DNA of 64,000 nucleotides, from positions 1-64,000 of IMG/VR virus record IMGVR_UViG_3300021964_000052; one strand, written 5' to 3'. A program made the translations under genes and the position numbers. Each line of letters begins with the position of its first letter. Positions within the stretch are counted from its first letter, which is position 1. This document shows positions 46,893 through 51,631 of the stretch, in pieces. The notes beneath the pieces are model-generated. The model did not search any database and was not told the DNA's origin. It worked only from the letters and a program-made list of their open reading frames with translations. Source of the DNA: a virus.

Positions 46893-46908
46893 AAATTAAT
46901 TTTTAAAG

Positions 46909-46982
46909 TAGTCCCTGTAGGAGTCGAACCTACAACCTCCTGATTCGTAGTCAGGTGCTCTATCCAATTGAGCTAAGAGACT
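46909..46982 (-). tRNA. tRNA-Arg (anticodon ACG)
   Basis: A complete cloverleaf: acceptor AGTCTCT/AGGGACT (one G-T pair), D-arm GCTC...GAGC, anticodon arm CCTGA-CTACGAA-TCAGG giving anticodon ACG, T-arm GTAGG-TTCGACT-CCTAC, discriminator A. The CCA end is not encoded. The first two bases overlap the TAG stop of the Smr gene. A34 must be changed to inosine by host TadA to read CGC/CGA as well as CGT. Confidence 0.93.
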
Positions 46983-50528: not shown

Positions 50529-50855
50529 CTATTCTCTGCTTTGTGACTGTTCCATCATAGTTTCATAGTAAGGACTATTAACCATTTTTTCATTAAACGT
50601 TTTGTATACTGCCTTATTAGTCCCATACATATACAAAGGACCGTCATACTCATAAGTAATAAAAGGAATATTTTCTAAGTCAGTTTGACCTTGCTTAGGT
50701 TGATACTCAGGTTTAGAATATCTTCTTTTACTATCAAATGATCTAAACTCTCTAGAAGTTACTCTATACCATTTACCTTTGATTTCGACTTCCAATACTG
50801 CCTCAGTAGGAAAATCGTATACTAATTTTTCTAAATGTCCTTTTTTTTCTGCCAT
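50529..50855 (-). CDS. 108-residue hypothetical protein behind the tRNA-like element
   Basis: MAEKKGHLEKLVYDFPTEAV, then EIKGKWYRVTSREFRSFDS and FITYEYDGPLYMYGTN. Beta-rich, basic, unrecognised. It follows the tRNA-like element by 15 bases with leader AGAAATAAAGGTTATG, so the element lies on the 5' end of its mRNA and must be removed or tolerated. Confidence 0.6.
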   Translation of the reverse strand: MAEKKGHLEKLVYDFPTEAVLEVEIKGKWYRVTSREFRSFDSKRRYSKPEYQPKQGQTDLENIPFITYEYDGPLYMYGTNKAVYKTFNEKMVNSPYYETMMEQSQSRE

Positions 50856-50870
50856 AACCTTTATTTCTAG

Positions 50871-51010
50871 TATCGGGGGAGGGACTCGAACCCTCGACCT
50901 CTTTGACCCTTTTGCTTTTTACGATCGATTATTACAAGTAATACTTTACGTTTAAGAATTACTACGCTCCAGGTTAAGTCAAAACGAGCTACCTACTGCT
51001 CTACCCCGTT
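50871..51010 (-). ncRNA. tRNA-like element with about 70-base insertion in the anticodon arm
   Basis: The outer parts fit an initiator-like tRNA: acceptor AACGGGG with CCCCGAT (one A-A mismatch), discriminator A, D-arm GAGC-AGTAGGTA-GCTC, variable AGGTC, T-arm GAGGG-TTCGAGT-CCCTC. The anticodon stem TTTTG pairs with CAAAG, extendable to 7 bp (TTTTGAC/GTCAAAG), but the two halves are separated by about 73 bases instead of 7. The insertion can form its own hairpin AGTAAT...ATTACT. No T33-anticodon pattern can be placed, so it may be non-decoding. Far too short for a group I intron. The promoter is placed to start RNA at the 5' end of the acceptor. Confidence 0.65.
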
Positions 51011-51016
51011 ATATTA

Positions 51017-51051
51017 TCTAAATATAAGAAAATACTATCAAATATCCAACT
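51017..51051 (-). promoter_or_regulatory. promoter of the tRNA-like element, embedded in endolysin 3' end
   Basis: AGTTGG; TTG then 20 bases then TATATTTAGA. The -33 box encodes the last residues QLDI-stop of the endolysin. The expected start point, about 8 bases after the -7 box, coincides with the first base of the tRNA-like acceptor. Confidence 0.72.
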
Positions 51052-51631
51052 GATACCCATTGAATGTTTTAATGTATTCAGTTAATTTTACTCTGTTTCC
51101 ATCTTCAAACATTGTACCATTTCTAACCCATTTCTTTACGCTTCCTGGTCCTACTAGATGAGCTGCAGCTAATAATCCAGACTCAGTAACTAATATTCCG
51201 TTTACTAACTGTCTATCATATTTTTTTATTTGTCTTTTAAGAACTTTCTTATTAGCTTTAAGAAGTTTGACTATAGCTTCTTCTTGAATGTCTGGAGAGT
51301 TTAAGAATTCGGCTCTACTTATATTGTAACCTAATCCTTTAAGAGTACTACTACCAAACTGGTACTTTCCCATATACCCATATTGATTTACTACGTCATA
51401 TCTATTACTTGATTCTCTATGTCCTAAATCATTTAAAAAACTATCTAGGTTAGGAATCTCATCTATCATAACTGCTTCTATTTCTATTGGAATAGTAACT
51501 ACCTCTTTAGCTTCTATTTCAGATATCTTTTCTATATTATGGTAAGCCATATAGCCGAACGATGCAAGCATAAAACTAAATAAAACAAATGCAAAGCCCA
51601 GAACGAATTCTATGTTTTCTAATTTTTTCAT
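51038..51631 (-). CDS. membrane-anchored lysozyme/lytic transglycosylase-like endolysin
   Basis: 197 residues. A signal-anchor helix at about 8-30 (FVLGFAFVLFSFMLASFGYMAY) is followed by a periplasmic linker and a lysozyme-like domain: LNDLGHRESSNRYDVVNQ (catalytic Glu73), GYMGKYQFGSSTL, SPDIQEEAIVKLLK, ESGLLAAAHLVGPGSVKKW. The enzyme would cut peptidoglycan glycan strands after the signal anchor reaches the periplasm, as SAR-type endolysins do. It could instead be virion-linked. The 3' end overlaps the promoter of the tRNA-like element. Confidence 0.82.
   Translation of the reverse strand: MKKLENIEFVLGFAFVLFSFMLASFGYMAYHNIEKISEIEAKEVVTIPIEIEAVMIDEIPNLDSFLNDLGHRESSNRYDVVNQYGYMGKYQFGSSTLKGLGYNISRAEFLNSPDIQEEAIVKLLKANKKVLKRQIKKYDRQLVNGILVTESGLLAAAHLVGPGSVKKWVRNGTMFEDGNRVKLTEYIKTFNGYQLDI

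Follow-up and report, generated by a model that had tools for sequence, protein, structure and literature searches.

Within a stretch of viral DNA that carries the acceptor, D and T arms of a tRNA, the two halves of the anticodon stem are separated by a long structured insert, which raises the question whether the locus encodes a tRNA interrupted by an intron, a signal acting on the gene that follows it, or an RNA with a role of its own. The locus was analysed in a 64,000-nucleotide stretch of an IMG/VR virus record (hereafter the window), and its features are collected in Table 1. Read from 5' to 3', the element consists of AACGGGG TA GAGC-AGTAGGTA-GCTC G TTTTGAC TTAA CCT ... AGG GTCAAAG AGGTC GAGGG-TTCGAGT-CCCTC CCCCGAT A.

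Table 1. The tRNA-like element and its immediate surroundings in the window; the element runs from 51010 to 50871 on the minus strand, with nt 1 at 51010 and nt 73 at 50871.
Feature	Position	Strand	Evidence
Phage-type promoter GTTG-N20-TATATTTAG	51018..51050	-	Overlaps the lysozyme gene end; dispersed repeat, also before the downstream orthologue in immuto
Whole tRNA-like RNA element (nt 1-73 equivalent)	50871..51010	-	R1 covariance model, ARAGORN -i, 28 other distinct relatives
Acceptor 5' strand AACGGGG, pair 2-71 (A-A) broken	51004..51010	-	Sequence and pair counts
D arm GAGC-AGTAGGTA-GCTC	50986..51001	-	D stem covaries; D loop AGTAGGTA everywhere except L036 and L043
7-bp 'anticodon' stem, 5' strand TTTTGAC	50978..50984	-	100% paired in 25 members, two-sided changes
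TTAA bulge at the place of the anticodon loop	50974..50977	-	TTAA in most members; TAAA or a 6-nt bulge in three
Upper helix, 5' strand CCT	50971..50973	-	Covariation CTC/GAG, CCT/AGG, CCA/TGG, CCG/CGG
Optional hairpin, ACGT in loop	50937..50963	-	Present in long members, absent from short members
Apical core CGATCGTAAAAAGC with palindrome CGATCG	50914..50927	-	Near-invariant in type-1 members
Upper helix, 3' strand AGG	50908..50910	-	Pair covariation
7-bp stem, 3' strand GTCAAAG	50901..50907	-	Pair covariation
T arm GAGGG-TTCGAGT-CCCTC	50879..50895	-	Covarying stem, invariant loop
Acceptor 3' strand CCCCGAT, followed by ACTA; no encoded CCA	50868..50878	-	Sequence
108-aa gene behind AATAAAGGTTATG	50529..50855	-	Orthologue in immuto directly behind the promoter, element absent there

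Default ARAGORN and a search of Rfam at the gathering threshold missed the element, their sole match in the window being a tRNA-Arg at 46908-46982. The initial annotation had proposed a relaxed tRNA search; with introns of up to 120 nt allowed, ARAGORN called the element, assigning it a 65-nt 'intron' and, as anticodon, an arbitrary 'tag'. Nothing else new was found in the window, and the same mode gave zero calls when the 64-kb sequence was dinucleotide-shuffled 20 times. The boundaries given in that annotation proved exact, and acceptor pairs 3-70 to 7-66, the D arm, the T arm and the TTTTG/CAAAG stem were all found again. The wide separation of the anticodon-stem halves, put at about 73 bases, also held (74 bases lie between the 5-bp halves), but the stem itself is longer than described, with 7 bp (TTTTGAC/GTCAAAG). 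No anticodon can be placed in the window element, in agreement with the earlier description. The minimum free energy of the window element alone is ordinary (z = -0.44); folding of the single sequence being unremarkable, comparison with relatives must decide.

Relatives were sought by pattern scans of IMG/VR. The first pattern, blind to the insert, combined an initiator-type D arm with a T arm 62-92 bases away and returned 12 other loci, while the same scan with a spacing of 26-56 bases returned zero. With two more patterns and a final relaxed one, and not counting the twin contig, the number of loci rose to 35, all with the insert at the identical place. The twin contig 3300021958_000054 (L002, L003, L006) is near-identical to the window and represents the same virus population, so that it does not count as independent evidence. 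The full-length members, including the window, comprise 29 distinct sequences, which are mutually related, so that counts among them are not independent. Beyond a normal 7-nt loop, the insert measures 39-41 nt in the short members and 64-71 nt in the others, giving a family range of 39-71 nt. Two types were distinguished: type 1 possesses the core CGATCGTRAAAAG, with the extra hairpin either present or absent, and type 2 (L011, L012, L046 and L047) possesses two hairpins. Because the search patterns fixed the D loop and, in one scan, the insert core, the invariance of both is partly built in; the core was also recovered by patterns blind to the insert.

The initial annotation had let the tRNA-like reading depend on the presence of the tRNA arms in close relatives, and across the 29 distinct sequences these arms are both kept and covarying. 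In the 25 type-1 members the 35 pairs are 95.6% paired, and the D stem, the T stem, the 7-bp anticodon stem and the 3-bp upper helix reach 100%. Two-sided changes were observed in 21 of the 35 pairs (shuffle mean 13.8), and the covariation score was 0.388, as compared with 0.153 for shuffled and at most 0.147 for slid alignments. Covariation is strong in the acceptor, the D and T stems, the 7-bp 'anticodon' stem and the upper helix. The covariance model R1 assigns 156.5 bits to the window element, which is itself an R1 member, and 88-92 bits to the type-2 members, which were left out of its construction and covary among themselves, also in a 7-bp upper helix. No second full-length copy was found by R1 in any of the records. 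The comparison of members thus shows a predicted fold that keeps the L-shaped tRNA body, with a 7-bp stem, a TTAA bulge, an upper helix and a conserved apical domain standing where the anticodon loop would be.

The tertiary contacts of this body (T8-A14, G15-C48, G18G19 with the T loop, and 26-44) are all kept in 29/29 members. The closest ordinary tRNA that we saw is a phage tRNA-Met with an initiator-like D arm; with phage tRNA-Met and initiator tRNA (RF00005) the element has the D loop, T loop, variable loop and tertiary contacts in common. One such gene, a normal tRNA-Met (CAT) at about 652-726 of L047, abuts the element on its upstream side, has nearly the same D and T arms and carries an A1-A72 mismatch, a broken 1-72 end that resembles the element. 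Unlike tRNA-Met, however, the element has neither an anticodon loop nor U33, possesses a 7-bp anticodon stem with the structured insert of 39-71 nt, always has a broken terminal acceptor pair, and does not conserve its acceptor and D stem as identity elements. The 7-bp acceptor stem of a canonical tRNA is absent from all 29 members: pair 1-72 is formed in 9/29 and pair 2-71 in 19/29, and both together in 0/29 against about 6 expected if independent, a deficit that is only suggestive since the members are related. The initiator-like character proposed at first applies to the broken acceptor end and, in most members, to the D stem. Initiator identity is not kept, as members differ in the acceptor, in the discriminator base and even in the D stem.

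At the other end of the molecule, a 7-nt anticodon loop with U33 and a fixed anticodon is absent, its place being taken by the 7-bp stem and the bulge. Base 33 in the normal register is C in nearly all members (U in 1/29), and the conserved pairing of 32-38 and 33-37 leaves no room for a 7-nt loop. Shifting the register by one places UAA in the loop of most members and AAA or neither in the others. A real tRNA with a new kind of mini-intron in its anticodon loop, one of the possibilities raised initially, would agree with the fit of ARAGORN once introns are allowed and with a GGCTTAA stretch that in the shifted register resembles a Leu(UAA) loop. The variable loop of only 5-6 nt nevertheless excludes tRNA-Leu, the putative anticodon (TAA, AAA or neither) is inconsistent between members and registers, and removal of the insert restores no consistent anticodon loop in either register. 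Together with the C in place of U33 (28/29), the conservation of pairs 32-38 and 33-37, which a spliced tRNA would need to open, the terminal acceptor pair broken in 29/29 and inserts that, at 39 nt, are far smaller than any self-splicing intron, these features make a mini-intron very improbable. A group I or other catalytic intron was rejected on account of the insert size (39-71 nt) and the lack of a spliced anticodon, and Rfam returned no intron match. A bulge-helix-bulge splice motif, considered for the flanking fold, was dropped as the bulge sizes do not fit and bacteria are not known to possess the endonuclease that it requires. A conserved reading frame in the insert was likewise rejected, since the stops differ among members.

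With the tertiary contacts kept but the acceptor end broken, U33 missing and no anticodon present, the view that the element is a tRNA-derived RNA, as opposed to a translating tRNA, is strongly supported by the comparison; it probably serves something other than translation, and the simplest reading is that the insert belongs to the mature RNA.

The predicted conserved RNA matches no known RNA family beyond tRNA itself. In Rfam, tRNA was just reached by the short member L027 (33.7 bits), and tmRNA, known riboswitches and ribozymes gave no match of note even at E values up to 5-10; a likeness to hatchet or preQ1 RNAs, also considered, found no support. Searches of 50,697 GenBank phage records with three members (blastn) yielded short matches only, for example to bare tRNA arms, and nothing credible was obtained with the isolated insert. 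Neither an insert pattern nor a D-arm/bulge pattern matched anything in 84,980 prokaryote genomes, and no description of such an RNA was found in a literature search. With tmRNA (RF00023) the element shares a tRNA-like end and an altered anticodon region; in contrast to tmRNA, it keeps a full D stem, has no conserved tag reading frame and carries too short an insert, and an alignment of 17-18 nt of the T arm, far below the cut-off, is all that can be made. Bacterial Y RNAs (the tRNA-mimicking YrlA) are, like the element, non-coding with a tRNA-like domain; reports of them exist for mycobacteriophages, and their presence has been proposed for a Listeria phage (PMC12282133). Identity with Y RNAs was rejected because a Ro60/TROVE gene was found in 0 of 34 records, all of which are possibly fragments; the predicted ends of the element also differ from those of Y RNAs in sitting at the acceptor, in the fashion of a tRNA.

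The phage-encoded GOLLD and ROOL RNAs, whose function is unknown, often lie near tRNA islands and form homo-oligomers partly via kissing loops (PMC12286853). Unlike the element, they are hundreds of nucleotides long and adopt other folds, and their Rfam models gave no match to it; a similarity may lie in the loops, which in both insert types of the element are palindromic, with one double change between members. The self-complementary apical hexamer reads CGAUCG in type 1. Three of the type-2 members have AUGCAU and the remaining one has GUGCAC, in which both sides at the rim of the palindrome have changed and self-complementarity is kept. A palindrome switch of this kind supported kissing loops in OLE and GOLLD (Kretsch et al., PMC12286853). 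For the element, a kissing dimer is suggested by two loop types and one double change for which an intramolecular pair could also account, which is weaker than the evidence for OLE and GOLLD, and predictions of how accessible the palindrome is are mixed, with mean probabilities of being unpaired of 0.26-0.99.

The carriers of the family are Immutovirus-like phages, viruses of Flavobacterium-like marine bacteria. The members found here all come from metagenome contigs. A relative of the window phage, the isolate Flavobacterium phage immuto (160 kb, Immutovirus), lacks the element; 10 of 15 tested neighbouring proteins match immuto at 40-67% identity in conserved order, an eleventh match being weak (29%). 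The order in the window is lysozyme gene, promoter, element and then AATAAAGGTTATG, with the element placed cleanly between the promoter and the ribosome-binding site. In immuto a GTTG...TATATTTAG promoter is followed directly by the orthologue of the 108-aa gene and the corresponding site is empty, which marks the element as a discrete unit. The lysozyme-like gene (51038-51631), related to Tenacibaculum phage proteins, is missing from the syntenic place in immuto and was apparently gained here or lost there. The promoter that, in the initial annotation, starts the RNA at the acceptor 5' end is supported, with a predicted start site, by the dispersed phage repeat GTTG-N20-TATATTTAG, which ends 8 bases before nt 1 and also precedes other genes in the window. 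Between 41456 and 50050 on the minus strand, dispersed intergenic repeats of 50-80 bp have the form AGTTGC-N~19-TATATTWAGGTATAAT...AATAAAGGTTATG, which recurs in immuto, and they look like the phage's own promoters. Immuto also carries an annotated tRNA-Cys (2247-2332 of L045; 20246-20331 of MW353175) of 86 nt, with an extra hairpin CAGCATAATGCTG, which was not called by ARAGORN and is possibly another altered tRNA; the spacers between the tRNAs neighbouring it look structured.

The element leads into an mRNA, as the initial annotation had it, the AATAAAGGTTATG start region lying at most 15 bases downstream. A leader or processing signal acting in cis, in which the tRNA fold is cut by RNase P or RNase Z ('tRNA punctuation') or regulates the next gene, would fit the position of the window element between promoter and ribosome-binding site, and in most loci the next start codon follows 4-17 bases past the element. 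Such tight packing is, however, general among phage genes, a plain tRNA would suffice and leave the conserved apical core superfluous, and the terminal acceptor pairs are not kept. Moreover, about 10 different, unrelated gene families follow the element in different phages, so that it is the RNA and not its neighbour that is conserved; a purely cis role is less likely on this account, and we consider the leader reading unlikely. On the upstream side, the element is found at other loci behind tRNA-Gln, queC or other genes.

The neighbourhood of queC, which the element adjoins at 14 loci, suggests a further reading, namely that the RNA is a partner or substrate of the phage 7-deazaguanine system through DpdA. 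DpdA belongs to the TGT family, classical members of which bind tRNA, and the homologue of the DpdA-like gene in immuto is annotated as DpdA. A preQ0 set of folE, queD, queE and queC with a DpdA-like transglycosylase surrounds the element in L013, L014, L022, L023, L025 and others; among the 34 records, all possibly fragments, queC was found in 16 and a DpdA-like gene in 13. Campylobacter phages such as CP220 also have members of the DpdA-like family. Against such a partnership, many loci of the element lie elsewhere, immuto has the whole 7-deazaguanine pathway but no R1 match better than 13.9 bits, and the association may merely mirror shared ancestry; it appears very improbable.

The explanation that we somewhat favour is that the element is a tRNA-derived non-coding RNA gene of the phage, acting in trans as an RNA in its own right and not in decoding. 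In the window the RNA would start near nt 1 from the phage promoter, and elsewhere it would be cut from tRNA or mRNA transcripts; the insert would be retained in the mature molecule, and the open acceptor end would block charging and use in translation. The tRNA body may confer stability and recognition by tRNA-binding factors, with the extended arm displaying the apical loop, whose self-complementary hexamer would most likely join two copies in a kissing dimer, or else bind a partner. During infection such an RNA may serve in trans to mimic a tRNA, or as a scaffold or a decoy. The last of these, a special case of the trans-acting RNA in which the body attracts host tRNA enzymes or anticodon nucleases and the altered loop is uncuttable or traps them, agrees with a full tRNA body devoid of an anticodon loop and, for anticodon nucleases, with the phage setting (PMC10264068); the conserved apical core exceeds what a decoy requires, and we hold this specific role to be rather unlikely. 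More tentatively, the family may represent a new class of RNA, built on the L-fold of tRNA as a chassis, unable to be charged or to decode, self-associating via palindromic apical loops and acting in trans, possibly on host tRNA enzymes, the ribosome or the phage DNA modification enzyme of the TGT family.

It has long been asked why phages carry tRNAs. A conserved family that keeps all of a tRNA except its decoding parts would separate the tRNA body from translation and make a non-translational role testable. Default tRNA annotation fails to see the element, so that others like it may go unnoticed elsewhere. The palindromic loops of the element provide a small and tractable candidate for RNA self-assembly in phages.
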